From the NCBI GenBank assembly GCA_934504065.1, contig CAKSVQ010000007.1:1-43479 (forward strand): DNA of 43,479 nt. Reading direction: 5' to 3'. The notes beneath the pieces were generated by a model. It saw only the letters and a list, made by a program, of their open reading frames with translations, was not told where the DNA came from and made no database searches. This stretch comes from an uncultured Dysosmobacter sp. Lineage in GTDB: Bacteria; Bacillota; Clostridia; Oscillospirales; Oscillospiraceae. The translations under genes and the position numbers were made by a program. Of this stretch, positions 5,537 through 43,070 are shown one piece after another (the first letter of the stretch is position 1; each line of letters opens with the position of its first letter).

Positions 5537-5634
5537 ACGTTTTCTCCTCGCTTTCACACAGATTCATACTACGAAACGCATGACTTTGCGCCTTTCGCAG
5601 CGCAAACTCATCTGCCTCGTAAAACCGCAAGGGA

Positions 5635-5659
5635 CTGCGGCGGGTTTTGCCCGCCGCAG
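5635..5659. repeat. 10-bp inverted repeat between TAXI binding protein and permease genes
   Basis: Perfect stem 5635-5644 with 5650-5659 and a 5-base loop, in the 188-base spacer of the two TRAP genes. On the transcribed (minus) strand no proper U-tract follows, so it is more likely an mRNA stability or partial attenuation element that lets the binding protein be made in excess than a full terminator. That role is inferred from position. Confidence 0.5.
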
Positions 5660-5724
5660 CCTCCCGGATGGGTCATTTTTCAGAATTTTAACGGCTCCTG
5701 AACAGTGTTACCAAAAGCCGCAAA

Positions 5725-6747
5725 TTACTTCGTGGGAACAGTGAAGCCCTTCTCAGCGAAATACTTGGCCGCGCCGGGATGATACGGCACGGAGGTCACG
5801 GAGGTGGCGAAGTCCAGATTCAGCTCCGCGCCCTTGGCGTGCACGGCGGCGATGGCGTCGATATTGTCAAACACGCCAGCGCAGAAGTTGTAAATATCGT
5901 CGTCGGAGACATCGTCCCGGGCCACGACCACGGCGCTGACGGCCACGGTGGTGGTGTCAGAATCCAGACCGTACACATCGGCGGGGATGACATACTTACT
6001 GTAATAGGGGGACTCGGCCATCAGGGCGTCGATATGCTCGTCGTCCAGACTGACAAGGTAGGTGGGCTTGGAGGAGGACAGCTCCACGATCGCGGTGGTG
6101 GGAGCGCCCGCAACCACGAAGGCGGCGTCGATCTTACCGTCCTTCAGCGCCTCAGCGCTGTCGCCGAAGCCCTGATAGGTGGGGTTGATGTCCTCTTCGG
6201 TCAGGCCGTAAGCGCCCAGCACATCGATAGCGTTGTACCACACGCCGGAGCCGGAGTCACCGATGGAGACGTTCTTGCCCTTCAGGTCAGCCACGGTCTT
6301 GATGCTGGGATCCACGGTGACGATCTGCACCTGCTCGGTATACAGGGCGGCCACGGTGGAGAAGCAGTCCACCTTGCCCGTCTCGGCAAAGAGGTTGGTG
6401 CCGTCATAGGCATAGCTCATCACGTCGGACTGGACGAAGCCCAGCTGGGCGCCTTCCATGTCCATCAGCTCAATGTTGCCCTGAGAGCCCTTGCCCTCCA
6501 CGGCGGTGACCTTGGTCCCGGTGGAGCTGGAGACCTGACCTGCCAGCACGGAGCCGAAAGCGAAATATGTACCGGAGGAACCGCCGGTGGTGAAGGTCAG
6601 CTCCGCGCCAGTAGAAGCGGGGGCCTGCGTATCGCCGGAGCCCTGAGAATCCGCGGGCTGATCCGCGGCACCCTGACTGCCGCCGCAGCCGGAGAGCACC
6701 CCGGCCATCATCATGGCAGCCATCAGCAGAGACATCAACTTTTTCAT
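5725..6747 (-). CDS. TAXI-family TRAP transporter substrate-binding lipoprotein
   Basis: This extracytoplasmic receptor captures the substrate and hands it to the fused permease encoded next. The 340-residue protein has a lipoprotein signal peptide with lipobox LSGC and the lipidated cysteine at residue 21. A Ser/Gly/Gln/Ala-rich linker follows, then the TAXI hallmark GGSSGTYFAFGSVLAG (about residues 54-69). The segment GKNVSIGDSGSGVWYNA (about 152) is the usual ligand-loop region. Length is normal. The gene is first in its operon, with a good promoter at 6797-6825. In a Gram-positive cell the protein would be tethered to the outer face of the membrane. Family assignment is firm; the ligand is not known. 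Confidence 0.93.
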   Translation of the reverse strand: MKKLMSLLMAAMMMAGVLSGCGGSQGAADQPADSQGSGDTQAPASTGAELTFTTGGSSGTYFAFGSVLAGQVSSSTGTKVTAVEGKGSQGNIELMDMEGAQLGFVQSDVMSYAYDGTNLFAETGKVDCFSTVAALYTEQVQIVTVDPSIKTVADLKGKNVSIGDSGSGVWYNAIDVLGAYGLTEEDINPTYQGFGDSAEALKDGKIDAAFVVAGAPTTAIVELSSSKPTYLVSLDDEHIDALMAESPYYSKYVIPADVYGLDSDTTTVAVSAVVVARDDVSDDDIYNFCAGVFDNIDAIAAVHAKGAELNLDFATSVTSVPYHPGAAKYFAEKGFTVPTK

Positions 6748-6796
6748 TGCAAAATCCTCTTTTCATCTTGGTATGGTGTTCAGTAATACCTTGCAC

Positions 6797-6825
6797 ATCA
6801 TATCGCATTCCAATGCATTTTTCAA
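6797..6825 (-). promoter_or_regulatory. Promoter of the TAXI-TRAP operon
   Basis: On the minus strand TTGAAA (6820-6825), a 17-base spacer and TATGAT (6797-6802), about 50 bases before the start codon. Several TGCAA/TTGCA words surround it (6748-6910) and may be regulator sites. Confidence 0.75.
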
Positions 6826-6940
6826 GTCTTTTTTCGCATCATTTTTCTTTTTTTGCAAGTTAGCAGGATTCTCCTTGCATTTTGCCGGATATTTTCCACT
6901 TTTTTGCATCCCGCCCACCCACGGCAGTACAATTAAAACA

Positions 6941-6970
6941 AAAGGGACGGAGATTTTCCTCCGTCCCTTT
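6941..6970. terminator. Terminator downstream of pyc
   Basis: A 12-bp perfect stem (6941-6952 with 6959-6970) with a 6-base loop. On the minus strand it follows the pyc stop by about 30 bases and ends in a T-rich stretch, separating pyc from the TRAP operon. Confidence 0.85.
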
Positions 6971-7001
6971 GTGCAAAACAGTTCTCTTTCCCAGACGGGC
7001 A

Positions 7002-10000
7002 TCACTTGATGGTCAGCAGCAGCTGGCCGCCCTTGACGGTGTCGCCCTCCCTGACCTCCACGGTGGCCACCGTGCCGTCCATCCGGGCGGTGATGGCGGT
7101 CTCCATCTTCATGGCCTCGATGGTGACCAGCGTCTGGTTTTTCTCCACACGGTCGCCCACCTTCACGGCGATCTTGCTCACCGCGCCGGGGATGGACGCG
7201 CCCACCTGACTCTTGTCCTCCGGGTCGGCCATGGGGACCTTGACGATGCTCTTCTGCGCCGCCTCGTCCGGCACCTGCACATCCCGGCGGATGCCGTTGA
7301 GCTCGAAGCTGACGGTGCGCATGCCGTCCTTGTCCACCTCGCCAAGGCCCAGATACTTGATGACCAGCGTTTTACCGTCGGCAATGTTGACCTTGTTCGT
7401 CTCGCCCACGGCCAGCCCGTGGAAGAACACGTGGCTGCCCAGCCGCATGATATAGCCGTACTCCCGGCGCTGCTTCACATAGTCCTCGATCACCTTGGGA
7501 TAGAGGCAGTAGCTCAGCACCGCCCGCCACGAGGGATCGGGATCAAATGCCTGCATCTCCTTTTTCTTCGCCTCGAAATCCACTGCGGGCAGCAGCTCGC
7601 CGGGGCGGCAGGTGATGGCCTCCTTCCCCTTGAGCACCACCCGCTGCAAGTCCCTTGGGAAACCGCCTGCAGGCTGGCCCATCATGCCGGAGAAATAGCT
7701 GACGGCGCTGTCCGGGAAGGCAAGGCCCTCGCCCTTTTCCACAATGGTCTGGGGCGTCAGGCCGTTCTGGGTCATGAAGATGGCAAGGTCGCCCACCATC
7801 TTGCTGGAGGGGGTCACCTTCACAATGTCGCCCAGCATCTGGTTGACCACCCGGTAATTCTCCTTCACCTCGGTAAAGCGGCTGCCAAGGCCCAGCGACT
7901 CCACCTGAGGCTTGAGGTTGGTATACTGGCCGCCGGGGATCTCATAGCGGTAAATATCCGTGCTGTTGCACCGGATGCCGCCCTCGAAGGAATCGTAGCG
8001 CTTGCGCACATCCTCCCAGTAATCCGTAAGCAGCTGCAAGCGGTCCAGATCCAGCCCGGTGTCCCGTTCGGTGCCCTGCAGGGCCGCCACCACGGCGTTC
8101 ATGGAGGGCTGGCTGGTCATGCCCGCCATGGAGCTGATGGCAAGGTCCACCACGTCCACTCCAGCCTCCGCCGCCAGCAGGCAGGCGGCCACCTGATTGC
8201 CGGAGGTATCATGAGTATGGAGTTGGATGGGGATGCCGATCTCCTGCTTGAGGGTGGAGACCAGCTTTTTTGCGGCGTAGGGTTTGAGGATGCCGGACAT
8301 ATCCTTGATGGCCAGCATGTGGGCGCCCCGGTGCTCCAGCTCTTTGGCCAGCTTCACATAGTACTCCAGCGGATACTTGTCCCGGCTGGGGTCCAGAATA
8401 TCCCCGGTATAGCAGATGGTGGCCTGACAGATCTTGTCCTGCTTGAGCACCTCGTCCATGGCCACCTCCATGCCGGGCAGCCAGTTCAGCGAATCGAACA
8501 CGCGGAACACGTCCACGCCGGAGCGGGCAGCTTCCTTGATAAACTCCCGGATCACATTGTCGGGATAGTTGGTATAGCCCACGGCGTTGGCGCCCCGCAG
8601 CAGCATTTGCAGCAGCAGATTGGGCGCTTTCTGGCGGATGAGGTCCAGCCGCTCCCACGGGGACTCATGGAGGAAGCGGTAGGCCACGTCGAAGGTCGCG
8701 CCGCCCCAGCATTCCAGAGAGAAGGCGTCGGCCAGAATCTCGCTGGTGCCCTCCATGCCCTTGACAATGTCCCGGGTGCGGACGCGGGTGGCCAGCAGGG
8801 ACTGGTGGGCATCGCGGCAGGTGGTGTCGCACACCAGCAGCTTTTTCTGGGCCAGCACCCAGTCCGCCACTGCCTTGGGGCCCTTGGCGTCCAGCAGCTG
8901 CTTGAGCCCGTCGGGCCGATGGCCCGTCACAGGCGGGAAACGGCACTCATCATAAAGCTTGTGCTCCCCCTGCTCCTTGACCACGATGTTGCCAATGTAT
9001 TTGAGCATCTTGGTGGCCCGGTCCTGACTCTGGTCCAGTTCGAAGAGCTCCGGTGTCTCGTCGATGAACTTCGTATGGCACTTGCCCGCAATGAATGTGG
9101 GGTTTTTCAGGATGTTGGTGATGAAAGCGATGTTGGTCTTCACACCGCGCACGTGCACCTCGTTGATGGCCCGGGCCGCCTTGCGGCACACGCCGGGGAA
9201 GGTGTTGTCCCACGTGGTGATCTTCACCAGCAGCGAGTCATAATACGGGGAGATCACCGCCCCGGTATAGGCGTTGCCGCCGTCCAGACGGATGCCGAAG
9301 CCGCCCGCAGAGCGGTACGAGGTGATCTTTCCGGTGTCCGGCGCGAAGTTGTTGGCCGGGTCCTCGGTGGTCACGCGGCACTGGATGGCATAGCCGTTCT
9401 GGTGCACGTCCGCCTGAGAGGCAATGCCAATCTCCGGGTCGCTGAGGGGCTTGCCCTCGGCGATGAGGATCTGCGAGCGTACCAGATCGATGCCCGTCAC
9501 CATCTCCGTGACCGTGTGCTCCACCTGAATGCGGGGGTTCATCTCGATAAAGTAGTGGTGGCCATCCCGGTCCACCAGAAATTCCAGTGTTCCGGCGTTG
9601 ACATAGCCCACGTGCCGGGCGATCTTTACCGCGTCGTCATACAGCGCCTGCCGCACCTCCGGCGCAACGGAGAAAGCCGGGGTAAACTCCACCACCTTCT
9701 GATAGCGGCGCTGCAGCGAGCAGTCCCGCTCGTACAGATGCACCACATTGCCGTATTCGTCGCCCAGCACCTGCACTTCGATGTGCTTGGGCTCCACCAG
9801 AAACTTTTCCATGAAGATGTCGTCATTGCCGAAGGCTTTTCTGGCCTCGGCCTTGACCAGATCATAGTTCAATCCCACCTCTTCCACGGTGTCGCAGCGG
9901 CGCATTCCGCGCCCGCCGCCGCCTGCGGCGGCCTTCAGGATCACGGGGAAGCCAAACTCCACAGCCAGCTTCTGGGCCTCTTCCCGGCTCTTCAGCGGCT

Positions 10001-10655: not shown

Positions 10656-12449
10656 TTACTTTTTTGCCTTGGAGTCCACCACATCCTTGAGCAGGGCGGT
10701 GAAAGCATCCATGGACATGGCGCCCAGATCGCCGTCGGCCCGGTGGCGGGGAGAAACGGTACCGTTTTCCATATCCCGGTCGCCTACCACCAGCATGTAG
10801 GGGATCTTGTCCAGCTGGGCTTCCCGGATCTTCTTGCCGATCTTCTCGTTGCGGTAGTCCACCTCTACGCGGTAGCCCAGCGCCTCCAGCTTTTTGGCCT
10901 GCTCGGCGCAGTAATCGCTGGCGCGGTCAGTGACGGGCAGGAAGCGCACCTGCTCCGGGGCCATCCACGTGGGCAGCGCGCCGGCATACTCCTCGATGAG
11001 GTAGGCCAGCGTCCGCTCGTAGCAGCCAAGGCTGGTGCGGTGAATGATATAGGGCAGCTTCTTCTCGCCGTTTTCATCGATATAGTACATGCCAAACCGC
11101 TCGGCCAGCAGCATATCGATCTGAATGGTAACCAGCGTATCTTCCTTGCCGTAAACGTTCTTATATTGAATGTCCAGCTTCGGGCCGTAGAACGCGGCCT
11201 CGTCAATGCCCACGGTATACTTCACGTCCAGATCGTCCAAAATCTGGGCCATGACGCGCTGGGCCTCTTCCCACTGCTCGGCCGTGCCCTCATACTTGTT
11301 GTTGGGGTTGGAGGGGTCCCACTGAGAGAAGCGGAAGGTGCACTTATCCAGCAGGCCCACGGTGCCAAGGCAGTACTTGGCGAGGTCCAGGCACTGCTTG
11401 AACTCCTCTTCCAGCTGGTCGGGGCGCAGCACCAGATGGCCCTCGGAAATGGTGAACTGGCGGACGCGGATCAGGCCGTGCATCTCGCCGGAATCCTCGT
11501 TGCGGAACAGCGTGGAGGTCTCACCCAAGCGCATGGGCAGGTCGCGGTAAGAGCGCTGACGGTTGAGATACACCTGATACTGGAACGGGCAGGTCATGGG
11601 ACGCAGGGCGAAGCACTCCTTGGTCTCATCGTGGGGGTCGCCCAGAATGAACATGCCGTCCAGATAGTGGTCCCAGTGGCCGGAAATGCGGTAAAGGTCC
11701 CGCTTGGCCATAAGCGGGGTCTTGGTCAGAAGATAGCCCCGCTTCTGCTCGGTGTCTTCCACCCAGCGCTGCAAAAGCTGAATGACCCGCGCACCCTTGG
11801 GCAGCAGGATAGGCAGGCCCTGACCGATGCAGTCCACCGTGGTGAAATACTCCAGCTCCCGGCCCAGCTTGTTGTGGTCGCGCTTGAGGGCCTCGGCCTG
11901 CTTGGCAAGATACTCGTCCAGCTCTTCCTTCTTGGGGAAGGCGATGCCATAAATGCGCTGGAGCTGCTTGCGGGAGGAATCACCCCGCCAATAGGCGGCG
12001 TTGCAGGCGGTGAGCTTGATGCCGTTGCCCTTGATGCGTCCAGTGGAATCCAGATGGGGGCCCGCGCACAGGTCAGTGAAGTCGCCCTGCTTATAGAAGG
12101 AGATCACAGCGTCCTCCGGCAGATCGTTGATAAGCTCCACTTTATAGGGTTCGCCCTTTTCCTCCATGAACTTCACAGCCTCTTCCCGGGGCAGCTCAAA
12201 ACGCTCCAGCTTCAGCTTTTCCTTGCAGATCTTGCGCATCTCGGCCTCGATCTTTTCAAGGTCCTCCGTGGTGAAGGTCTCCTCGCTGTCCAGATCGTAA
12301 TAGAAGCCGTTTTCAATGCTGGGGCCGATGGCCAGCTTCGTCTCCGGCCACAGCCGCTTCACGGCCTGCGCTAGCACATGGGAGCAGGTATGCCAATAGG
12401 TGCGGCGGTACTGCTCGTTTTCAAAGGTATACTGGTTCTCTTCGCTCAT
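10656..12449 (-). CDS. thrS: Threonyl-tRNA synthetase lacking the N-terminal TGS domain
   Basis: Charges tRNA-Thr with threonine. The 597-residue protein starts directly with the editing (N2/SAD) domain. HxxxH (H20 and H24, in HTCSHVLAQA) and CAGPH supply the four usual residues that clear mis-charged Ser-tRNA-Thr. The catalytic core keeps the zinc ligands: Cys in MTCPFQ, His in SEGH, and His in IIHRTSLGC. The family's common DDAH block reads SEGH here. The C-terminal anticodon-binding domain is present. The usual 60-residue N-terminal TGS (N1) domain is missing, and no upstream in-frame extension exists before the leader, so this is a natural short form and not a mis-called start. Expression is controlled by the T-box leader immediately upstream. 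Confidence 0.94.
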   Translation of the reverse strand: MSEENQYTFENEQYRRTYWHTCSHVLAQAVKRLWPETKLAIGPSIENGFYYDLDSEETFTTEDLEKIEAEMRKICKEKLKLERFELPREEAVKFMEEKGEPYKVELINDLPEDAVISFYKQGDFTDLCAGPHLDSTGRIKGNGIKLTACNAAYWRGDSSRKQLQRIYGIAFPKKEELDEYLAKQAEALKRDHNKLGRELEYFTTVDCIGQGLPILLPKGARVIQLLQRWVEDTEQKRGYLLTKTPLMAKRDLYRISGHWDHYLDGMFILGDPHDETKECFALRPMTCPFQYQVYLNRQRSYRDLPMRLGETSTLFRNEDSGEMHGLIRVRQFTISEGHLVLRPDQLEEEFKQCLDLAKYCLGTVGLLDKCTFRFSQWDPSNPNNKYEGTAEQWEEAQRVMAQILDDLDVKYTVGIDEAAFYGPKLDIQYKNVYGKEDTLVTIQIDMLLAERFGMYYIDENGEKKLPYIIHRTSLGCYERTLAYLIEEYAGALPTWMAPEQVRFLPVTDRASDYCAEQAKKLEALGYRVEVDYRNEKIGKKIREAQLDKIPYMLVVGDRDMENGTVSPRHRADGDLGAMSMDAFTALLKDVVDSKAKK

Positions 12450-12481
12450 GATAAGCTCCTCCTTTAATGAGGGGTGAACGT

Positions 12482-12517
12482 AAAAAATCTCACCCCTGAC
12501 CAGATCAGGGGTGAGAT
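12482..12517 (-). terminator. T-box terminator stem of thrS leader
   Basis: Perfect 13-bp stem (12487-12499 with 12505-12517), loop of 5 bases, followed on the minus strand by TTTTTT. This is the termination arm of the T-box expression platform; the antiterminator uses the T-box sequence just upstream. Confidence 0.92.
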
Positions 12518-12739
12518 ACGAAAAACGTATTCCACGGTTCCACCCTGCTTACGGCCCCATGGGCCGTCGCTTGTGTCCTCTGTAACGGGAGGGCCCGTCC
12601 CAGCCTACATATCGGTGGGCGGCTCCAAGGCGGTGGCTGGTCCCGGTTCCGACCGGGGCCGTTTGCAGCCAACGGCGGCCCCTCTCTGCTGCGTTCTCCG
12701 GACAGCGTCCTTTTCGATGCCTTTTTGTGATTAGAACAC
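12482..12739 (-). promoter_or_regulatory. T-box riboswitch leader controlling thrS
   Basis: The minus strand carries the conserved T-box AGGGTGGAACCGTGG (12531-12545), the sequence that pairs with the NCCA end of uncharged tRNA, followed by an intrinsic terminator. Upstream is a stem I region with AGAGAG and GGCTG words. An ACC triplet (12632-12634 on the plus strand as GGT), followed a few bases on by GGAGC, is a good candidate for the threonine specifier codon. By the known mechanism, uncharged tRNA-Thr stabilises the antiterminator and allows thrS expression. Placement of the specifier is my inference. Confidence 0.92.
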
Positions 12740-12768
12740 ATGATAGCACTCTGTTTTGTCCCTGTCAA
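12740..12768 (-). promoter_or_regulatory. Promoter of the thrS T-box transcript
   Basis: Consensus-like minus-strand TTGACA (12763-12768), a 17-base spacer and TATCAT (12740-12745), just before the leader RNA and just after the end of pgsA. Confidence 0.88.
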
Positions 12769-12790
12769 GAGGACAATCCCGTCATTTTCC

Positions 12791-13312
12791 TCAAAAAGAT
12801 GCAATGATGTCCTTGTTTTTCACGAAATACTCCACACCGGAATACAGCGTGGTCAGCGTGATGACCCAGACGCAGGCGGTGTTCAGCAGCGCGGGGATGG
12901 GCAGGAACATCAGCACCACGCACACCATGGTGCTGGCGGTCTTCACCTTGCCGGACCATCCGGCGGCAATGACCCGCCCCTTGTCGCTTGCGATCATTCT
13001 CAGACCGCTGACGGCGAACTCCCGGCAGATCACGATCAGCAGCGCCCACGCGGGCATCTGGCCGATCTCCACGAACCACAGCATGGCCGCCGTGACCAGC
13101 ATTTTATCCGCCAGAGGGTCGGCGAATTTGCCGAAATCCGTGACCATATTGTACTTCCGGGCGATCTTGCCATCCAGCAGGTCAGTGATACTGGCCAGAA
13201 CGAAAATGACCAGCGCCGCCCAGTTCGCCCCGGGAAAGCCCCAATACAAAACGCCCATGAAAACAGGGATGAGCACAATGCGCAGAAGGGTCAGTTTATT
13301 TGGTAAATTCAT
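12791..13312 (-). CDS. pgsA: CDP-diacylglycerol--glycerol-3-phosphate 3-phosphatidyltransferase
   Basis: Makes phosphatidylglycerol phosphate, the committed step to phosphatidylglycerol and cardiolipin, in the membrane. The 173-residue protein has four or five hydrophobic segments. It carries the complete CDP-alcohol phosphotransferase motif, DLLDGKIARKY followed by DFGKFADPLAD (about residues 43-67), with all catalytic aspartates. The length is typical. The ATG overlaps the stop of the DUF4491 gene, so it is translated as the last member of the rimO cluster; the rimO-pgsA pairing is common in Firmicutes. No clear terminator follows it before the thrS promoter. Confidence 0.95.
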   Translation of the reverse strand: MNLPNKLTLLRIVLIPVFMGVLYWGFPGANWAALVIFVLASITDLLDGKIARKYNMVTDFGKFADPLADKMLVTAAMLWFVEIGQMPAWALLIVICREFAVSGLRMIASDKGRVIAAGWSGKVKTASTMVCVVLMFLPIPALLNTACVWVITLTTLYSGVEYFVKNKDIIASF

Positions 13313-13599
13313 GGTTTGTTCCTCTTTTCATTTTTCGGAAACCAGCCTTTGCGCACCCGCTCCTCCTGCTCGAACAGTTCCCGGATGCTCCACAGGCACG
13401 CACACGCCAGCACGCCCAAAATCGCGCTGCCAACGGTGTTTTTCACAAAGAGCGACACCGCCGCAAGGCAAAGCCCCGCCGCGAGAAACGCGGGCCAGAC
13501 CCCTTTTCCGAAATAATACTCCGCCTTGATGACAATGGGGTGAAACGCCCCGATCAGCAAAAAGGCCGCACCGCCCAGCAAAATGCCGACCCCGTTCAT
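13309..13599 (-). CDS. DUF4491 small membrane protein
   Basis: A 96-residue protein with three hydrophobic segments (about residues 1-19, 34-51 and 55-70) and a basic cytoplasmic tail. The pattern GAFHPIVIKAEYYFG near the start, and ELFEQEERVRKGWFPKN near the end, match what I recall of the DUF4491 family, whose function is unknown. It overlaps rimO by four bases (ATGA) upstream and pgsA by four bases downstream, so the three genes are tightly coupled. A role in membrane lipid or envelope biology is only a guess from the neighbour pgsA. Confidence 0.8.
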   Translation of the reverse strand: MNGVGILLGGAAFLLIGAFHPIVIKAEYYFGKGVWPAFLAAGLCLAAVSLFVKNTVGSAILGVLACACLWSIRELFEQEERVRKGWFPKNEKRNKP

Positions 13600-14924
13600 G
13601 CTTCCACGGCCTCGCCCGTCAGCTCGCCGTCCATAGTCCCGGTCATGCGGACGGTGACAAACGTGCCGGGGACGATCTCCCCGTCGGCGGTGAAATAAAT
13701 ACGCCCGTCAATATCCGGTGACTCGGCATAGCTGCGGCCATAGAACATCTGCGCCTGCGCGTCAAAGCCTTCGCACAAAACCTCCCGTTCCATGCCCAGC
13801 AGGGATTCATTATAGGCGTCGATGATGTCGGACTGCACGTCCACCACCAGCTCCGCCCGCCGCCGGGCCTCTTCGGCGTCCACATGCTCCATCCGCGCCG
13901 CGGGCGTGCCCTCCTCTGGGGAGAAGGGGAACACCCCCGCCCGCTCGATGTGGGTCATCCGCAGGAAGGCGCACAACTCCTCCAGCGCGGCGTCATCCTC
14001 ATAGGGAAGGCCCGTGATGATGCTGGTGCGCAGCACCAGTCCGGGGATCCGGTCGCGGAGCTTTTCAAGCATCTCCGTCAGGGACGCCTTGGTGTCTCTG
14101 CGGTTCATGGCCTTTAAGATCTGGTCGTTGCAGTGCTGGATGGGAATATCCAGATACTTCACGATTTTCGGCTCCCCGGCAATGGTGTCGATCAGCTCAT
14201 CGGTGATCTCGTCGGGATAGAGATAGTGCAGGCGGATCCAGTGGAAGTCCAGCTTGCAAAGCTCCTTCAAAAGCGCCGCCAGCTGGTGCTCGCCGTTCAG
14301 ATCGGTGCCGTAGCGGGTGATGTCCTGCGCGATCACCAGCAGCTCCTTCACTCCGGCGGAGGCCAGCTCCGCTGCCTCGTCCAGCAGTTCGTTCATGGGG
14401 CGGCTGCGGTACTTGCCCCGCAGAGAGGGGATCACGCAATAGGCGCAGTGATTGTCGCACCCCTCGGCAATGCGCAGATAGGCGTACCACGGCGGCGTGG
14501 ACAAAATGCGCTCGCCGCTCTGGTTTGCGGTGTGGATGTTGCCAATGTGGCAGGGCCGCAGGCCCTTGTCCATCACCTCGGCCACGGCGCCTGCGATCTG
14601 GTCATAGCTTCCAGTGCCCAGCACGCCGTCCACCTCCGGCAGCTCCTTTAAAACGTCCTCTTTATAGCGCTGCGCCATGCATCCGGTGACCAGAATTTTC
14701 TTGATCTTCCCCGCCTTTTTCAGCTCCGCCATTTCCAGAATGTTGTCGATGGCCTCCTCACAGGCGGAGGACAAAAATCCACAGGTGTTCACCACCACCA
14801 CGTCCGCGCCCTCCGGCGCGGTCTGGATCTGGTGGCCCGCACTCTGGCAGGCGGCCATCATCTGCTCGCAGTTCACCTGATTCTTCGCGCAGCCCAGCGA
14901 AATAAACGATATGTTATAAGCCAT
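13596..14924 (-). CDS. rimO: Ribosomal protein S12 methylthiotransferase
   Basis: RimO is a radical-SAM enzyme with two iron-sulfur clusters that adds a methylthio group to an aspartate of ribosomal protein S12. The 442-residue protein has the N-terminal UPF0004 domain with its three cluster cysteines (in GCAKNQVN, NTCGFLSSAC and TGCMAQRY). The radical-SAM motif CDNHCAYC lies at about residue 155, and a C-terminal TRAM domain follows. NTCGFL favours RimO over MiaB. The start lies 20 bases after the methyltransferase gene; GGAAAG about 8 bases upstream, and an AAGGAG overlapping the methyltransferase stop, can serve as ribosome binding sites. The pgsA and DUF4491 genes follow with overlaps. 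Confidence 0.94.
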   Translation of the reverse strand: MAYNISFISLGCAKNQVNCEQMMAACQSAGHQIQTAPEGADVVVVNTCGFLSSACEEAIDNILEMAELKKAGKIKKILVTGCMAQRYKEDVLKELPEVDGVLGTGSYDQIAGAVAEVMDKGLRPCHIGNIHTANQSGERILSTPPWYAYLRIAEGCDNHCAYCVIPSLRGKYRSRPMNELLDEAAELASAGVKELLVIAQDITRYGTDLNGEHQLAALLKELCKLDFHWIRLHYLYPDEITDELIDTIAGEPKIVKYLDIPIQHCNDQILKAMNRRDTKASLTEMLEKLRDRIPGLVLRTSIITGLPYEDDAALEELCAFLRMTHIERAGVFPFSPEEGTPAARMEHVDAEEARRRAELVVDVQSDIIDAYNESLLGMEREVLCEGFDAQAQMFYGRSYAESPDIDGRIYFTADGEIVPGTFVTVRMTGTMDGELTGEAVEA

Positions 14925-14944
14925 AGAATTCTTTCCGACACTCC

Positions 14945-15583
14945 TTACAGAGCAACCGCTCCTTTATAAGTTGGCCAATCCGGCTCATAGTCCGTATTTG
15001 CCTGATTTCCCCACAGTGTCCACCCATCTCGTTTTCCTCTGGCAAAAAGCTCCAAATACGGTCCCGGGCTGCACTGTTCAATCAGGGTAATGATTTCATC
15101 CGGTTTTCTGGAATGCTCCCGTTTCTGGCTCCGGATCAGATTTACTTGTGTCCTCCCGGGTGCTAATGTGCGCATATTACTTCCCCGAACGCCAAACAAC
15201 AACAATTCTGTAACATTACGAAAGTAAAAACCGACTCCTCTGCCGTCCGGGCCTCCGTCCTTCCGTACTTTTTCCCAAACGATATTTGTTTTATATTGAA
15301 AGCCCCATGCTTTCATAACTTCCAGCCCCTCAGGCAAGAGTGCATTGGGAACCCACAAATATAAGTGTGCTCCATCGTCTGCCGCCTTACTTACTGGTAA
15401 GGTCTTGATCTCATCCAGCGGCATCGTTGGATATCGGTTTAACCGTTTATGTTCCGGTGCCATTTTCCCTGTTCGATTCTGAAATTGCCACGGCGGATCT
15501 GCCAAAATGGTTTTAAACCTTCTCCCCGCGCAAAACTGGATTAATTCATGCTCCTCATGATAATGCTGATTCAAATCTGCCAT
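14945..15583 (-). CDS. MT-A70-family adenine-N6 DNA methyltransferase of a restriction-modification pair
   Basis: The 212-residue protein has the DPPW catalytic motif (residues 29-32, in TILADPPWQF) and the MT-A70 fold order, with the segments LYLWVPNALL and NIVWEKVRKDG and the C-terminal ELFARGKRDGW. MT-A70 proteins transfer methyl to adenine N6 in DNA or RNA; next to an endonuclease gene this one is most likely the protective DNA methylase. The start at 15583 is chosen because GGAGGG lies upstream and earlier in-frame sequence overlaps the endonuclease gene in another frame. It starts 4 bases after the endonuclease stop, so the genes are coupled with the nuclease first. Base composition is lower in GC than neighbours. 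The recognition sequence cannot be read from the protein. Confidence 0.85.
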   Translation of the reverse strand: MADLNQHYHEEHELIQFCAGRRFKTILADPPWQFQNRTGKMAPEHKRLNRYPTMPLDEIKTLPVSKAADDGAHLYLWVPNALLPEGLEVMKAWGFQYKTNIVWEKVRKDGGPDGRGVGFYFRNVTELLLFGVRGSNMRTLAPGRTQVNLIRSQKREHSRKPDEIITLIEQCSPGPYLELFARGKRDGWTLWGNQANTDYEPDWPTYKGAVAL

Positions 15584-15587
15584 TACA

Positions 15588-16244
15588 TCATCCCTCCCAA
15601 TCTGAAATCGTCTTGGGAGTAATTCCAATGGCCAGTATGGGACATCCGCCATGCCTTCTCGCATGGATCCTTGGAAGCAATTTCCCCATCCATGTGGTAC
15701 TCGCCCCATATTTCTTCTTGATTTCGCTGCCCAGCTTTTCAAAAACGGCATTCAACTGTTCGCTGCGCGTAATAATGATGCCGCAGGTGATTACACCGCA
15801 CTCATAAAATGTGCGGAATGCATACAAATCCCGGTCGAATGTCTGGTCTTTGCTGTTCCACTCCAGATCCAACGCGACTTCGCCCTTCACATAATCGATT
15901 TTATGTCCGCTGATAAACTCTTTTAAAGTAAACTCTCTGCTTGCTTCTTTCGTCTTTTTTCCCTCGAGCAGCCGGACAATCAGGTCGCCGGAAATCTCGA
16001 GTTCTTTCCAATTTAACGGTCGCAGTAAGGCACTCAGCTTTTTCGGGACTTGGGATTCATTTCCACCCTTTTTCAGAATATCATCCGTTTCCACGGAAAA
16101 ATCGCTTAATGCTCGCACTATTTCAGAAAATTCCTCCACATGTGTTTGCGTCAGAATCTCTAATGCACCATTAAAATTATAAAACTCGTATTTTTCTGCA
16201 ATCACATCAGGGATCAATGCTCTCCACATCTCTTCCGTACTCAT
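15588..16244 (-). CDS. BglII/BstYI-family type II restriction endonuclease
   Basis: The 218-residue protein resembles the BglII-type endonuclease family. The central stretch HKIDYVKGEVALDLEWN (about 114-130) gives D117-x8-D126-x-E128, the same spacing as the metal-binding acidic residues of that fold, followed by the conserved-looking FDRDLYAFR. It would cut DNA at a short palindrome; related enzymes recognise GATC-centred sites, but the specificity here is unknown. It begins inside the 3' end of recX (38-base overlap), using GGAGG in recX as ribosome binding site. The region is AT-rich: 20 G/C of 60 in 15901-15960, against 38 of 60 in recX at 16801-16860 (hand counts). This points to horizontal acquisition. 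Confidence 0.78.
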   Translation of the reverse strand: MSTEEMWRALIPDVIAEKYEFYNFNGALEILTQTHVEEFSEIVRALSDFSVETDDILKKGGNESQVPKKLSALLRPLNWKELEISGDLIVRLLEGKKTKEASREFTLKEFISGHKIDYVKGEVALDLEWNSKDQTFDRDLYAFRTFYECGVITCGIIITRSEQLNAVFEKLGSEIKKKYGASTTWMGKLLPRIHARRHGGCPILAIGITPKTISDWEG

Positions 16245-16861
16245 CCAAATCTCCTCCCTCCTGTATCTCGCTGCCCAGACGGCTCCATGCGCTGCGGATC
16301 TCGCTCCACGGATAGCCCCGGCGCAGCAGCGCGTTGGTCACGCGGCGCTTTTCCGCCTCGTCCGGCTGCCGCCCCCGCAGCCTGGTGCGCAGGAAGCGGT
16401 CGATCGGGCCGCCCATTTCCGGCATGGCGTCCAGCGCGTCGTCCCAAAGCTCCCGGGGCACGCCCCTTTCATAGAGCTTTTCCCGGATGCGGGCAGGACC
16501 GTACAGCGCTTCGGCATAGTGGCGCACCAGCAGCGCGGCATACTCTGCGTCGTTCAGCGCGCCGATGGCCTCCAGCCACTCTCCGGCGTAGCGGGCATCG
16601 GCCTCGCTGGCTCCTTTTTCCCGCAGCTTCTTTTCCAGCGCGGCGCGGCTCATGGCCCGTCTGCCGATCAGATCGGCGGCGGCCGTTTTCACGTGGGAGA
16701 GCCCCGCCGCGCTCTTCAGCCGCTCCAGCATGGCGTCATCCAGCTGGTCCCCGGCGCGCAGGCCGAAATCCAGCAACTCCTGCTCCGTGATCTTCAGGCA
16801 GGCCCCGTCTTCCAGAAAGACCAGCACCCGTCCCCGCTTATGTCTGGATGCCTCGATGCGC

Positions 16862-16872
<11 letters not shown>
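16207..16872 (-). CDS. recX: Recombination regulator RecX, with a changed C-terminal tail
   Basis: RecX binds RecA filaments and dampens their activity. The 221-residue protein is mostly helical and basic, with three-helix repeats and family-like segments such as [18 protein letters not shown] (about 68) and [13 protein letters not shown] (about 188). It overlaps the end of recA by 11 bases. The last dozen or so residues (from about EYGRDV) are read from DNA that also encodes the start of the endonuclease in another frame, so the original recX end seems to have been replaced when the restriction-modification genes arrived. The core is complete, so the protein is probably functional. Confidence 0.88.
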
Positions 16873-17968
<1,096 letters not shown>

Positions 17969-17998
17969 ATGTTCTCGTCCTCCTAAACGTAAAATTCT

Positions 17999-18865
17999 TT
18001 ATATCTCGGTGCACAGCGTGCCGAATACCACCCGGGGGATGCCGTTGTGGTCCTTGACGATCTGAATATCGCCGAAGCCCTGCGCCCGCATGACGCGCAG
18101 CACGGTGTCCGCCTGACCGATGCCGACCTCAAAATACAGCCGTCCGCCGGGCACCAGCGCTTCTTTCCACATGCCGGAAATGGTCTGGTAAAAGTCCATT
18201 CCGTCCTCGCCGCCGTCCAGCGCCAGATGCGGCTCGTAGTCCCGGACGGACACATCCAACTGCGCAATGTCCCCATGGGGGATATAGGGCGGGTTGGAGA
18301 CGATACACTGGAACTCGCCCAGCGTCCGCTCCGGCTTTTCCCGGGCGTCCACCCGCATGGGCACCCCCCGGCCCGTCAGGCCGTTGCGCCGGATATTCTG
18401 GCGGCACACCCGCAGCGCCGCGTCGGAATATTCGCCCAACACCACCCGGGCCTGGGGCGCCTGCGACGCCACCGCCAGCCCGATGCAGCCGCTTCCGGCA
18501 CACAGGTCCAGCACCCGGCACTCGCCCAGCGTCTTCACATACTCGATTGCCTGCTCCGCCAGCACTTCGGTATCCGGCCGGGGGATGAGCACATCCGGCG
18601 AAATGTCCAGCGGCAGGCCGTAAAACTCCCACTCGCCGATCAGATACGCCACCGGTTCGCCCCGCAGATGCCGCGCCACCAGCTCCCGCACCTGCTGCTC
18701 CAACTCCGGAGAGGCATACAGCCCCCCGTCTCTTGCCAGCTCCTCCCGGCTTTTCCCGGTGCCGAAGCACACCAGCTCCCGGGCCTCCAGCGTGGAGGCC
18801 TCAATGCCCGCCTGCCGCAGCTCCCGGCGGATATCCAAATACAGATTGTTATATGTCGTTGCCAT
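17999..18865 (-). CDS. prmC: Peptide chain release factor N5-glutamine methyltransferase
   Basis: PrmC methylates the glutamine of the GGQ motif in release factors RF1 and RF2, speeding termination. The 288-residue protein has an N-terminal helical domain, the SAM-binding motif VLDLCAGSGCIGLAVA, and the substrate motif NPPY (in IVSNPPYIPHGD). The start at 18865 is preferred because GGGGTG lies just upstream; an ATG six codons earlier lacks a site. It follows DUF1385 by 54 bases and precedes recA by 30. DUF1385 and prmC are often neighbours in Clostridia, usually next to prfA, which is not here. Confidence 0.94.
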   Translation of the reverse strand: MATTYNNLYLDIRRELRQAGIEASTLEARELVCFGTGKSREELARDGGLYASPELEQQVRELVARHLRGEPVAYLIGEWEFYGLPLDISPDVLIPRPDTEVLAEQAIEYVKTLGECRVLDLCAGSGCIGLAVASQAPQARVVLGEYSDAALRVCRQNIRRNGLTGRGVPMRVDAREKPERTLGEFQCIVSNPPYIPHGDIAQLDVSVRDYEPHLALDGGEDGMDFYQTISGMWKEALVPGGRLYFEVGIGQADTVLRVMRAQGFGDIQIVKDHNGIPRVVFGTLCTEI

Positions 18866-18919
18866 AGTACACCCCGGTGTCATTTTTTGGGGAAATACAG
18901 CGCTTAAAGGCGCTGGGAA

Positions 18920-19888
18920 TCACCACGTGTCCTTGCCCTTTTCGCTGGGCAGCACCAGCTCCAAAGAGCGGATGGCGCATTCGATCATGCTGTCGTCCGG
19001 CTCGTTAGTGGTGAAGTTCTGCATCCACAGTCCCGGGGCAGTCAGCACCCGGGCAATGGCGCTGTCCTGCGCGTGGCGGCCCACCCAGCGGTTGAATTCA
19101 TAGGTCACGCCCACCACCAGCGGCAGCAGCACCAGATGCACCGCCGTGCGCAGCCACACGTTGGTCACAGGCCAGATGCCAAACACCAGACTGGAAAACA
19201 GGATGGACACGAAAATGACCACAAAGAGAAAGCTGGTGCCGCAGCGGGGATGGTGCCGGGGCTGGATGCGGACGTTTTCCACCGTCAGCGGCAGTCCGGC
19301 CTCATAGCAGAAAATGGTCTTGTGCTCGGCGCCGTGGTACTGGAACACCCGGTAAATATCCTTTTGCTTGGAGCAGGCGATAAGGTAGACCATGAAGATC
19401 ACGATCTTCAGCGCACCCTCCACCAGATTCCGCCCCCACAGGGGAAAGCCGGGGAAAAAGTGCAGCAGCCCTCCGGTGAGGAAGGTGGGCAGCACCATGA
19501 ACAAAAACACGCTCATACCCACGCCCAGGATCACCGCCAGCGTCACCAGCGCGCTCTCCAGTTTTTTGCTGGAAAGATGCTTTTCCAGCCACAGCTCAAA
19601 GCGGGAGGGCTGGCTGGCTTCTTCCTCCGGGTAAAAGTCGGCGGAATACATCAGCGCTTTCACGCCGTTGACCATAGCCGCAAGAAAATTAACGGTGCCC
19701 CGCACCAGCGGCAGCCCAAGGACCGGATAGCGGTCCTTGATAAATTTCAGTTCCTCGACCTTTTCCACAAGCTGGCCGTCCTTATCCCGGACGACGATGG
19801 CCTGCTTTTCCGGGCCGCGCATCATAATGCCCTCGATCAATGCCTGTCCGCCGATGCTGGTGCGGAAGGGCTGCTTTTCTTCTGCCAT
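18920..19888 (-). CDS. DUF1385 membrane protein (YqhQ-like)
   Basis: The 322-residue protein starts with the family hallmark GGQALIEGIMMRGPEK (about residues 12-27) and has several hydrophobic segments in its middle (about 113-136, 154-166, 221-240) and a conserved QYHGAEHKTIFCYE stretch (about 182). DUF1385 proteins are common in Firmicutes next to prmC/prfA; their biochemical role is not established to my knowledge. A good ribosome binding site (AAAGGGAACC) precedes the ATG. It is the first gene of the unit running through recA, so it would share any damage-dependent control exerted at its promoter. Confidence 0.88.
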   Translation of the reverse strand: MAEEKQPFRTSIGGQALIEGIMMRGPEKQAIVVRDKDGQLVEKVEELKFIKDRYPVLGLPLVRGTVNFLAAMVNGVKALMYSADFYPEEEASQPSRFELWLEKHLSSKKLESALVTLAVILGVGMSVFLFMVLPTFLTGGLLHFFPGFPLWGRNLVEGALKIVIFMVYLIACSKQKDIYRVFQYHGAEHKTIFCYEAGLPLTVENVRIQPRHHPRCGTSFLFVVIFVSILFSSLVFGIWPVTNVWLRTAVHLVLLPLVVGVTYEFNRWVGRHAQDSAIARVLTAPGLWMQNFTTNEPDDSMIECAIRSLELVLPSEKGKDTW

Positions 19889-19912
19889 GTGGTTCCCTTT
19901 CTATGTTCTGAT

Positions 19913-19941
19913 AGTATAACACGTTCGGTTTTTAAAATCAA
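19913..19941 (-). promoter_or_regulatory. Promoter of the DUF1385-prmC-recA unit
   Basis: Minus-strand TTGATT (19936-19941), a 17-base spacer and TATACT (19913-19918), with a start site expected about 20 bases before the DUF1385 start codon. Confidence 0.75.
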
Positions 19942-19951
19942 ACGTTTGTTC
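19940..19951 (-). promoter_or_regulatory. LexA-like (SOS) box overlapping the -35 element
   Basis: The minus strand reads GAACAAACGTTT, which fits the GAAC-N4-GTTY form described for LexA sites in Clostridia and Bacillus. It overlaps the -35 hexamer, a position where a repressor would block transcription of the recA-containing unit. Assignment rests on sequence match and on recA being downstream. Confidence 0.6.
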
Positions 19952-19956
19952 TAATT

Positions 19957-21405
19957 TTATTCATGCTCCGGCAGTCGGATGGTGACCACCGCACCGCCGC
20001 CCTCGGCGTTGCCGATGTCGAATGTGCCCCCGTGGAGCTTGACGATCTCGTCGCACACGGCAAGGCCACTGCCGCTGCCCCGGGCCTTGGAGGAGCCTTT
20101 GTAAAACTTCTGCTTCACATAGGGCAGCTCTTCCTCCGGCACGCCGGGACCGTAGTCCCGGATGCGGATGACCTGCCAGCCCCCCTCCGGGGCGATGGAC
20201 GCGTCGATCCGCCTGCCCGCGCCGCCGTGCTTGGCGGCATTGTCCAGCACGTTGCAGAAAACCTGTTTGAGCCGCTCCGGATCGCCGGAGATGGTGGGCA
20301 TCACCTCGTCCTGTGGGACATAGTGCAGCTCAATGCCCTCCTGCCGGAACAGCTCCCGGTACGTGAAGATCGCGTCCTCAAACTCCGCCTGCAGGTCCAC
20401 CTGCTCAATGCGCAGGGTGAAGCGGCCATCCTCCATCTTGGAAAATTCCAGCAGCTCCTCCACCATGGTGGAAAGGCGGCGGGACTCATTGAGAATGATG
20501 CGGATGCCCCTGCGCATCTGCACCGGGTCCCCGGTGGGGTCCTCCAAGATCGTTTCTCCCCAGCCGTTGATGGCGGTAAGGGGCGTGCGCAGCTCATGGG
20601 AAACGGAGGAGATAAACTCGGTCTTCATCTTCTCATTCTGGCCGATCTGCAGCGACATATCGTTGATATTGTCCACCAGCTCGCCCAGCTCATCGCTGTA
20701 CTTCTTCTCGATCTGAAAGCCGTAGCTGCCCGCCGCGATACGCTTGGCCGCGTCTGACACCACCGCCACCGGCTCGACCACGTTGTTGATGAACAGCAGA
20801 TTGCTCATCACAATAAGCCCCATGCACAAAAGCGCCACAAGGCAAATGGCAAGGCTGGTCAGCATCACCTGACGGCTGGCCCATTTCAGCGAGGTCACCA
20901 GCCGCATCACCCCCACCACGTTGCCGTGGAAGATGAGGGGATGGGAGACGGCCATGATATTCTCGCCCGTCTCCGGGTCGCGGCCCCGGTAGGCGGACAT
21001 GGACGCGGTCTCAATGGCCTGCGTGATGTCCCCCGTGCCGGGGGAGGTTCCTGCCGTCAGCCCGGAGGTGGAGACCTGTATCCGCCCGCCGCTGCCGATG
21101 AATTGCAGCTCAATGCGGTCCTTGTCCTCAAAGCTGTCCGCCGTCTGCACGGCCTTGGGATAAAAGCCCACATAACCGCTGTCCATAAAATACTCGTTGA
21201 ACGAGTTGGCAATGGCCTGCGCCCGGGTCTCCAGTCCCTTTTGCATCGTGCCGTAATAATAGCTGAATGCGCCTGCGGAGAACAGCACCACGATCAGCAG
21301 CACCAATGCAAACACTGGCATCACCGTGTTGAAGATCCACTTCTGCCGCAGGCCCCGCAGCTGAAGCGCCCGGAATTTAAAGTTTTTTTCTTCCGCCACG
21401 GACAC
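19957..21405 (-). CDS. Membrane sensor histidine kinase
   Basis: Two-component sensor. The 482-residue protein has a transmembrane segment at about 27-47, an extracellular sensor region of about 130 residues, a second membrane segment at about 178-206 and a HAMP linker. A HisKA domain follows with the phosphorylated His270 (SVSHELRTPL), then a HATPase domain with N-box DNAAKHGG, G1 DYGPGVPEEE and G2 GSGLAVC. All motifs are intact. The start is a GTG at 21405; another GTG two codons later (21399) is better spaced from GGGAGG and may be the true start. It is 24 bases after its response regulator. What it senses is unknown; the preceding lipoprotein gene is a candidate partner. Confidence 0.93.
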   Translation of the reverse strand: MSVAEEKNFKFRALQLRGLRQKWIFNTVMPVFALVLLIVVLFSAGAFSYYYGTMQKGLETRAQAIANSFNEYFMDSGYVGFYPKAVQTADSFEDKDRIELQFIGSGGRIQVSTSGLTAGTSPGTGDITQAIETASMSAYRGRDPETGENIMAVSHPLIFHGNVVGVMRLVTSLKWASRQVMLTSLAICLVALLCMGLIVMSNLLFINNVVEPVAVVSDAAKRIAAGSYGFQIEKKYSDELGELVDNINDMSLQIGQNEKMKTEFISSVSHELRTPLTAINGWGETILEDPTGDPVQMRRGIRIILNESRRLSTMVEELLEFSKMEDGRFTLRIEQVDLQAEFEDAIFTYRELFRQEGIELHYVPQDEVMPTISGDPERLKQVFCNVLDNAAKHGGAGRRIDASIAPEGGWQVIRIRDYGPGVPEEELPYVKQKFYKGSSKARGSGSGLAVCDEIVKLHGGTFDIGNAEGGGAVVTIRLPEHE

Positions 21406-21429
21406 TTCCTCCCGTTCCCGCAGAGTGCG

Positions 21430-22116
21430 TTACAGTCCCCATTTATAGCCATAGCCCCAAATCGTGGTGATATAGGTGGGGTTTTGCACGTTGTCCTCAA
21501 TCTTCAGCCGAAGACGGCGGACATTCACGTCCACGATCTTCAGTTCCCCGAAATAATCCCGGCCCCACACCCGGTCCAGAATCTCCTCCCGGGAAAGGGC
21601 TTTGCCGGGGTTTTCCATAAACACCCGCATAATGGTGTATTCTACCTGCGTCAGCTTGATGCGCTGGCCGTTTTTTTCCAGCGTGCGGTTGCGGGTGTTC
21701 AGCAAAAACGGCGACTGCCATATCTCCCCGGAGGGGGCGGGCTCCTCGCCGCCTGTGCGGCGGAACAGCGCGTCCACCCGGGCGGTCAGCTCCGCCGGGG
21801 AGAAGGGCTTGGTCACATAATCGTCCGCCCCGGTCATCAGTCCTGTCACCTTGTCCATCTCCTGTGAACGGGCGGTGAGCATGATGATGCCGATGCGGGT
21901 GTTGGTGGCCCGGATGCGGCGGCAGACCTCAAATCCGTCAATGCCGGGCAGCATAATGTCCAGCAGGGCCACCCGGGTATCCGGGTTCTCTTTCAGCCGC
22001 TCCAGCGCGTCCTCGCCTGTTTCGGCCTCGATCACGTCATAGCCCGCCCGCCGCAGATTGATGACGATAAAGCTGCGGATGCTGGACTCATCCTCCAAAA
22101 CCAATACCTTTTTCAT
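21430..22116 (-). CDS. OmpR/PhoB-type response regulator
   Basis: The 228-residue protein has a receiver domain with the acidic pocket E8/D9, the phosphorylated Asp53 (VALLDIMLPG), and the conserved TAR and K of YVTKPFSPAELTARV. A winged-helix DNA-binding domain follows, with LTQVEYTIMRVFMENPG and an end typical of PhoB-like proteins (TIWGYGYKW). It works with the histidine kinase encoded 24 bases downstream. It starts 19 bases after the lipoprotein gene, so all three are probably one operon. The regulated genes cannot be told from sequence. Confidence 0.95.
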   Translation of the reverse strand: MKKVLVLEDESSIRSFIVINLRRAGYDVIEAETGEDALERLKENPDTRVALLDIMLPGIDGFEVCRRIRATNTRIGIIMLTARSQEMDKVTGLMTGADDYVTKPFSPAELTARVDALFRRTGGEEPAPSGEIWQSPFLLNTRNRTLEKNGQRIKLTQVEYTIMRVFMENPGKALSREEILDRVWGRDYFGELKIVDVNVRRLRLKIEDNVQNPTYITTIWGYGYKWGL

Positions 22117-22135
22117 GGCTTGATCCTTTCTGACG

Positions 22136-23485
22136 TTAAGTTTCTCCGGCGATCCAATCCGCCTGGATCAGGCTGAAGGCGGAGCGCACCTCGTCCGCCG
22201 TCACGCCGGACTGCCACTCCCCGTTTCCGGGCAGCAGCTCCGCAACATACAGCGTTTTGGGCTGGCGGCTGAGCAAAAACCGTTCGCCCCGGACGGCCCG
22301 GACCTCCCGATCCGGCCCGGTGAGGGCGCTGATGCGCAAAAACGGGGTGTTCTTCCCGCTGCCGCGGATGGAAAAGGTCACCCCCGCCTCGCTCTGCGTG
22401 GCGGAGCGGGAGATATAAATACCGTCTGTCCACGCCTCCGGCAGTTGGAGATACCAGCCGTCCTCCACGCAGTGGAACGTCCGCACGGCCACCTCGCCGC
22501 GGCCCGCCGCGTCGTAAGAGTACCAGTCGATCCGCTGGGACGGTGCGTCATCCTCGCTCTGCACCGGAAGCAGCACAGGCACCGGGACCTCCGTCACACC
22601 GTCGTTATTGATGTCCGTGGGATACAGCCCGCTGAAGGGATGCACCAGTTCGGACACCCCCGTCTGGCTGGAAATGGCAGCATTGCTCAGTTCACCGGAG
22701 CGCAGGGTCAGCACGTCCGTCACCGCCCCGGCCAGCTCCGTCACTCCGGTGACGAATATCGCGGGTTCACCGGAGCGCAGTGCGCCCTTTTTCACCCGGC
22801 CCTGCTGGCTCAGCTCCGCCATGGTGACGGACAGCCGGACAGAGGACTGCACATCCAGTCCACCGTCGTCGCGCCAGCCGTAATAATCGGCCACACCGCC
22901 CTGCTCGTCCGCCCGGAGCACCACCAGCTCCTGCCGCTGGTCGCGGTCCATGTCCTGCACGGTATAGCGGGCGTAGTTGGTGCGCAGCAGCATTCTGGCA
23001 CCGCCGCCGGAGAGGGTATAGACCTCCAGCACCTGCAATTCCGTGGCGGCCTTCCAGCCCACAGCGATCTCCTTACGGCCATCGCCGTCCAAATCGATAT
23101 AGTCAATGCTGTAAATCGCGGTGCCGCTGCCCTCGATCAGGTCCGTCTGCTCATAGGTATCTCCTCTGGCGGAGAAAATGTAGATCTTCATGGGCTTTTC
23201 GTCCCCGGGGGCACGGAAAAAGGCCAGCGCCTCCTCCCGGCCATCGCCGTCCAGGTCCACCATCTGCACCGACTGGATATTGGCCCCGGAGGTGGGGGCC
23301 GCGTACTCCGCGCCGCCGGAGAGTATCTCGTTGATGCGCTGGTTCAGCGCCGTGTATTTCATCGGCAGGGACGGCAGGCTGTAAAGGTCCTGCGGGCTGG
23401 CGGAAAGCTTGGGAAAGCCGCCGCAGCCGCTCAGGCTTACCGCCAGCACCGCCGCCAGTGCCGCCGCGCGCCACCGTTTTTTCAT
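22136..23485 (-). CDS. Lipoprotein with FG-GAP/VCBS-like repeats, first gene of a two-component operon
   Basis: A 449-residue lipoprotein with lipobox LSGC and lipidated Cys21. After it come several calcium-loop-like repeats of the FG-GAP/VCBS type: DLDGDGREEALAFF, DLDGDGRKEIAVGW, DMDRDQRQELVVL and DINNDGVTEVPV. These usually fold as blades of a beta-propeller. The start at 23485 is chosen because it opens a clear signal peptide and GGAG lies 8 bases upstream. It sits 19 bases before the response regulator gene. I infer that it may be an outside ligand-binding or signal-modulating partner of the kinase; that is not proven. No enzymatic motif is recognised. Confidence 0.82.
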   Translation of the reverse strand: MKKRWRAAALAAVLAVSLSGCGGFPKLSASPQDLYSLPSLPMKYTALNQRINEILSGGAEYAAPTSGANIQSVQMVDLDGDGREEALAFFRAPGDEKPMKIYIFSARGDTYEQTDLIEGSGTAIYSIDYIDLDGDGRKEIAVGWKAATELQVLEVYTLSGGGARMLLRTNYARYTVQDMDRDQRQELVVLRADEQGGVADYYGWRDDGGLDVQSSVRLSVTMAELSQQGRVKKGALRSGEPAIFVTGVTELAGAVTDVLTLRSGELSNAAISSQTGVSELVHPFSGLYPTDINNDGVTEVPVPVLLPVQSEDDAPSQRIDWYSYDAAGRGEVAVRTFHCVEDGWYLQLPEAWTDGIYISRSATQSEAGVTFSIRGSGKNTPFLRISALTGPDREVRAVRGERFLLSRQPKTLYVAELLPGNGEWQSGVTADEVRSAFSLIQADWIAGET

Positions 23486-42964: not shown

Positions 42965-42993
42965 TTGCTTTTTTCCTCCATCCGGCGTATGCT
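42965..42993 (+). promoter_or_regulatory. Promoter of the fluoride riboswitch transcript
   Basis: TTGCTT (42965-42970), a 17-base spacer and TATGCT (42988-42993), placing the start close to the first base of the aptamer. Confidence 0.65.
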
Positions 42994-43000
42994 TGCCATC

Positions 43001-43066: not shown

Positions 43067-43070
43067 ATGT

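Follow-up and report, generated by a model that had tools for sequence, protein, structure and literature searches.

Gene content of the locus

The window, a stretch of 43,479 nucleotides of DNA from an uncultured Dysosmobacter species, carries a predicted restriction-modification pair between recX and rimO. The genes from recA to rimO lie on the minus strand. In the order of reading, recA (16862-17968; TIGR02012, 565.6 bits, cut-off 325.3) overlaps recX (16207-16872), whose product has three RecX Pfam domains, by 11 bp. The leading gene of the pair (15588-16244) encodes a restriction endonuclease of the BglII/BstYI family with 218 amino acids, and the second (14945-15583) an MT-A70 family DNA adenine methyltransferase (MTase) with 212 amino acids, counted from the ATG at 15583. 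This ATG is the most likely start within an open reading frame that spans 14945-15751 and is open from 15751. The right flank of the slot is formed by rimO (13596-14924; TIGR01125, 451.6 bits, cut-off 356.95), which is followed by a DUF4491 gene (13309-13599) in the gap before pgsA; an earlier sequence-only reading had described the rimO-DUF4491-pgsA set as overlapping, and the overlaps indeed measure four bases each.

The endonuclease matches the Pfam family PF09195 (Endonuc-BglII) with 149.4 bits (cut-off 26), a profile comparison pairs it with BstYI (E 2.5e-4), and a fold comparison assigns it the same fold as BglII and BstYI. A single-sequence search of the PDB returned neither of these two enzymes and a single chance hit. 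The MTase, searched as the longer open reading frame, matches PF05063 (MT-A70; E 3.4e-31, 108.9 bits, cut-off 23.9) as well as the PADLOC model for Type II MTases (MTase_II; E 2e-90), and its translation contains DPPW. Neither protein was matched in NCBIfam; in PHROGs, the MTase was matched and the endonuclease was not. Across 28 endonuclease sequences, D117, D126 and E128 are invariant, and the profile alignment places them opposite D119, E128 and Q130 of BstYI, which we take to be the catalytic residues of that enzyme; the putative acidic catalytic residues are in place. As judged from its sequence, the pair is a Type II restriction-modification system, composed of a BglII/BstYI-fold endonuclease and an MT-A70 adenine methyltransferase, and both enzymes are presumably active. 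AGATCT occurs eight times in the window against 20.4 expected, but since six of the 64 six-base palindromes are even lower, we did not take this scarcity to indicate the recognition site. A site centered on GATC, as BglII and BstYI have, would suit the family.

Gene junctions and expression signals

The pair fits tightly between its neighbors. The recX frame continues for 38 bp into the endonuclease gene, and RecX is accordingly 221 amino acids long, whereas it measures 206 in each of five relatives. Both the endonuclease ATG and the likely ribosome-binding site of this gene lie within the 3' end of recX; the latter is GGAGGGAGGAG (16251-16261), proposed from its position and its likeness to the consensus. 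The endonuclease stop codon (TGA, 15588-15590) and the MTase ATG (15581-15583) are 4 bp apart, with a likely MTase ribosome-binding site, GGAGGGATGATGTAATG (15581-15597), in the 3' end of the endonuclease gene. At the other end, the MTase stop codon (TAA, 14945-14947) merges into AAGGAG, the likely ribosome-binding site of rimO (together 14935-14947).

Promoter-like and terminator-like signals were scanned from 12400 to 22400, where we found seven of the former (3.2 in shuffled sequences) and 16 of the latter (9.2 in shuffled sequences). Upstream of recX, the nearest promoter-like sites on the same strand lie at 19821-19941, and prmC ends 30 bp before recA; the operon may therefore reach beyond recA-recX, with a start before recA. 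From recX to rimO, the same strand has promoter-like sites that score 9 of 12 and one weak terminator-like stem of six pairs (15833-15814) within the endonuclease gene. The absence of strong signals and the tight overlaps are consistent with cotranscription of the pair with recA-recX, and read-through from the housekeeping operon is a plausible and the simplest reading.

A candidate internal promoter for the MTase was also considered and rejected. In the window and in two relatives with the same pair, L026 and L034, a promoter-like site is found at one position inside the endonuclease gene; it also occurs there in one of 20 other homologs (L047). Since shuffling of synonymous codons produced a site at this position in 40%, 68% and 60% of cases (window, L026 and L034, respectively), we do not claim such a promoter.

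Elsewhere in the window, the leader upstream of thrS (12504-12726) resembles the Rfam T-box family (E 7.7e-15; its 68.8 bits fall short of the gathering score, 93) and has a terminator-like stem (12517-12487), and a fluoride riboswitch at 42993-43067 scores above its gathering score.

Base composition and mobility features

The pair stands out by its composition. The 1300 bases from 14945 to 16244 have a G+C content of 0.460, compared with 0.598 for the whole window, and the lowest value among 844 segments of this length, taken in 50-base steps, is 0.456 for the one starting at 14901. At third codon positions, the two genes have G+C contents of 0.50 and 0.46, whereas 11 other genes measured range from 0.73 to 0.86. 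The values that had originally been counted by hand are exact (0.333 for 15901-15960 and 0.633 for 16801-16860). The slot content is similarly poor in G+C in L026 (0.48) and L034 (0.47), against about 0.62 for their loci.

The earlier reading had stated that the pair comes without an integrase of its own, and none was seen: the eight window proteins from pgsA to prmC match no integrase or transposase family of Pfam. The same is true for eight cargo reading frames of relatives and for that of relative L103, described below, in a scan that covered a minority of the reading frames of 11 other slot fillings. Repeats or duplications of at least 12 nt that bracket the pair were found neither in the window nor in L026 or L034, a threshold below which shorter duplications would be missed; weak partial repeats exist inside these regions.

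Variability of the recX-rimO junction

To see how this junction looks in relatives, we scanned public genomes for RecX, which yielded 44 loci, and extended the survey to a genus set of 86 genomes. Of these, 79 had a match to recX and 78 one to rimO. The two genes shared a contig and a strand in 71 genomes; eight of the 79 recX genomes were dropped as rimO was absent or on another contig. For G043 and G450, in which recX is split over two contigs, the piece sharing a contig with rimO was used. In G023, G027, G457 and G476 (L136-L141), contigs end near recX or rimO at this very junction, as if the cargo were repetitive.

The recX and rimO matches are separated by at most 100 bp in 34 of the 71 genomes, by 101-250 bp in six and by 251-3000 bp in 31. 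A sorting by content, for which the match ends differ slightly, gives 35 empty slots, 17 with an XRE/DUF6809-like pair, five with a nitroreductase gene, two with the same restriction-modification pair as the window, one with a DUF559 gene and 11 with other DNA. The composition-based proposal that foreign restriction-modification genes were inserted between recX and rimO is therefore supported by relatives with an empty site, namely by the 34 genomes with at most 100 bp between the two matches, and likewise by the nearest seven-member group on the tree (L001-L005, L009 and L014). The site is not peculiar to restriction systems, since the slot is variable, holds several kinds of cargo and carries the same pair in two of 71 congeneric genomes.

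The commonest cargo consists of a divergent XRE regulator and a DUF6809-like gene (L006, L007, L008, L010, L012, L013, L015, L017, L018, L020, L021, L031, L037, L038, L044, L109 and L113). The second name is tentative, given that one of four proteins tested scores above the Pfam cut-off; a C-terminal STDYL(L/V)G.TDDP stretch is present in most copies read, and L020 and L037 have two XRE genes in the slot. Short DUF6809 matches in seven slots classified as empty (L001-L005, L011 and L014) were disregarded; they lie at the recX end, with which the reading frame from L006 that served as query overlaps on the other strand. Among the 11 other fillings, four (L103-L106) have DNA in common, with 68-72% identity over about 300 bp. 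The gap of L103, the nearest of these to the window, contains a reading frame of about 120 amino acids with no Pfam match and aligns with the gaps of L104-L106 over about 296-299 bp at 68-72% identity; a remnant of the restriction-modification pair was looked for there and not found.

Neighboring junctions, measured in the 44 loci and the window, served as controls. The recA-recX junction is never wider than 2 bp, so that none of 45 exceeds 250 bp. Of 41 prmC-recA junctions, 15 are wider than 250 bp and three of these wider than 450 bp, and 13 of the 15 inserts belong to one cluster. Between rimO and pgsA, 23 of 39 gaps exceed 250 bp and none 450 bp, and tblastx groups the 22 wide gaps found in relatives into one cluster, whereas the window has its DUF4491 gene there. 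At recX-rimO, 23 of 41 exceed 250 bp, all of them also 450 bp, and four clusters are needed to accommodate the 22 inserts found in relatives. The recX-rimO junction is hence the most variable of the four compared but not the sole variable one, as prmC-recA varies too. As for the rimO-pgsA gap itself, a tblastn search with the DUF4491 gene of the window found nothing in the 44 loci; of six relatives read (L002, L006, L012, L026, L034 and L042), four (L006, L012, L026 and L034) have instead a frame that stays open for about 98-108 codons and is helix-hairpin-helix-like by eye, and L002 has no gene.

Distribution of the pair on the tree

A tree of RecA, RecX and RimO was calculated with FastTree for 72 rows, on which changes of slot content may be gains or losses. 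The three carriers of the pair, i.e. the window, L026 and L034, are scattered over this tree. The pair requires three changes, and the starred branches force all three; for all cargo classes together, 20 changes are required, compared with a mean of 33.5 for shuffled labels. The nearest rows to the window are L103, with its other cargo, and the empty-slot group mentioned above.

The clearest case of differing cargo is the sister pair of L026, a carrier, and L013, which has the XRE pair. Their alignment ends about 50 bp before the end of recX, after 66 identical bases, and restarts at codon 6 of rimO, while the DNA between these two ends is unrelated. Breakpoints inside recX and rimO fit the trace expected of an exchange through the flanks. 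The two sisters are 98.7% identical far upstream, 90.0% and 90.8% in the adjoining upstream parts and 96.6% downstream; in blocks of 250 bp, identities run at 0.94-1.00, then at 0.75-0.99 (4501 to 8500) and then at 0.92-0.996. The drop in identity next to the slot, on its upstream side, fits an imported tract, although ordinary rate differences would give the same picture.

Gene order, orientation and place of the pair are the same in all three carriers; the exact left junction differs among them. The endonuclease of the window is 78% identical to that of L026 and 73% to that of L034, with corresponding values of 80% and 76% for RimO and of 83-84% for the MTase (window MTase as query). The window segments that flank the slot on both sides have their best matches in non-carriers, not in L026 or L034, and no donor for the pair of the window was found.

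Together, a junction that is empty or differently filled in relatives, carriers that are scattered on the tree and a sister with other cargo lead us to regard recX/rimO as a cargo slot, and they support an insertion of the pair between the two genes.

Family members away from the slot

The endonuclease family is present in five of the 86 congeneric genomes, in two of them at recX-rimO; a sample of 400 genomes from the taxonomic family contained it in 18. A tblastn search for recX and rimO found neither at the 19 loci of those 18 genomes, within flanks of no more than about 1.5 kb. Longer flanks were read for ten loci outside the slot. Some of these look like bare two-gene units set among apparent housekeeping genes, for instance after an RNase H gene (L097, by Pfam) or between genes that resemble comEC and holA (L101, by eye), and one relative (L099) is situated near a gene of the phage-integrase family. 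More distant relatives, all below 60% identity, occur in five phage and 13 plasmid records. Of 25 viral-contig loci retrieved with the endonuclease, 24 have a matching MTase. Among the best 120 of 7717 metagenomic matches, two endonucleases are 100% and nine are 90-93% identical.

In a relative of the pair in G072 (L093, 7222-8563), the endonuclease frame is broken while that of the MTase is open, and the break may reflect a pseudogene or an assembly error. The neighbors of this relative look like genes of an FAD-dependent enzyme and of a molybdopterin oxidoreductase by eye.

Origin of the pair

We consider it probable that the Type II pair was horizontally transferred into a variable recX-rimO slot, that the cargo of this slot is exchanged, most likely, via homologous recombination in its flanks, and that the pair is read with the housekeeping operon; of these elements, the recombination route and the cotranscription are what we infer. 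DNA would be taken up from a relative bearing cargo, and double homologous recombination in recA-recX and in rimO would place, remove or swap this cargo. Once placed, the pair would be read within the housekeeping operon; the signals for its start and stop are nested in the end of recX and in the ribosome-binding site of rimO. Because the flanks of the window match non-carriers best and no donor was found, the recombination route is put forward here as a fit to a published model.

The main rival is an old residence of the pair, which would have occupied the slot in the ancestor of the genus and later have been lost or replaced in most lineages. That the two genes have the same order, orientation and position in every carrier would follow from this, and so would the similar identities of endonuclease and RimO between carriers, as vertical descent predicts; the number of changes on the tree, moreover, cannot separate gains from losses. 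Yet the lineages around the three carriers have an empty slot or different cargo, and the exact left junctions of the carriers vary. The G+C content of the slot in L026 and L034 lies well below that of their loci and therefore has not drifted to that of the host. The sister of L026 holds other cargo, though a replacement in L013 would look alike. On balance, we regard an ancestral pair as unlikely, if less so than the remaining alternatives.

Some restriction-modification systems have been proposed to enter genomes as autonomous transposable or site-specific units, and a review (PMC3874152) states that some of them insert with target duplications and carry imperfect inverted repeats. The bare-looking two-gene units in other genomes and the relative near a phage-integrase family gene would agree with such an entry, which we nevertheless hold to be very improbable at recX-rimO, where the left junctions differ, no mobility gene is seen in the slot and no repeat of at least 12 nt brackets the pair in any carrier, shorter ones being beyond this search. 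Slightly less probable still is that the genes are kept mainly as an epigenetic regulator, with the MTase as the part that counts and a weak or inactive endonuclease. In some distant plasmids, conservation is higher for the MTase than for the endonuclease (75.3% versus 24.0% in one Xanthomonas plasmid), and the broken endonuclease frame beside an open MTase frame in the G072 relative points the same way; in the window, however, the frames of both genes are open, and 28 homologs share the putative catalytic residues without exception.

In a further reading, recX/rimO and a few other gaps in housekeeping operons, among them the comEC-holA-like one and the one after an RNase H gene, might be favored landing sites because a promoterless pair would be expressed there at once, jointly with RecA and RecX, so that break repair and restriction would co-vary and the repair operon would buffer self-cutting during establishment. 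We think this reading improbable. The locus offers a small, countable example of the entry of defense genes into a housekeeping operon where no mobility machinery is seen, and combines one slot, several types of cargo, a sister pair with different cargo and neighboring junctions as controls. Should the flanking-recombination route hold, recX/rimO in this genus would lend itself to measuring how fast cargo is swapped, and could be used to ask whether the transcript of a repair operon can sustain a restriction system.

Comparison with known systems

Both the enzyme pair and the hotspot belong to known kinds. The endonuclease is 17-20% identical to BstYI and BglII, and where BstYI has E128 and Q130, it has D126 and E128. 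The MTase resembles the MT-A70 methyltransferases of Type II systems, as reflected in its PADLOC match (MTase_II), and we saw no notable difference from them; like its counterparts at 24 of the 25 viral-contig loci, it lies beside an endonuclease of the BglII family, although gene order and strand vary at some of these loci. The solved structures of MT-A70 and METTL3 are distant relatives.

For the slot itself, we found nothing in the literature, judged by titles and the openings of abstracts. The study by Oliveira et al. 2017 (PMC5635113) describes many chromosomal hotspots without mobility genes, whose flanking core genes recombine more, and an over-representation of replication and recombination/repair genes beside them, which makes the place next to recX less odd. 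Compared with the hotspots as described there, the recX/rimO slot is tiny (up to about 1.5 kb), lies inside an apparent single operon and was compared across the species of a genus instead of within one species. By its count of states and changes, with five recognized states and 11 other fillings in 71 genomes and 20 changes on the tree, its turnover is high. It shares with them this turnover of cargo between two core genes and a recombination gene as its neighbor, and no integrase was seen among the slot proteins scanned.
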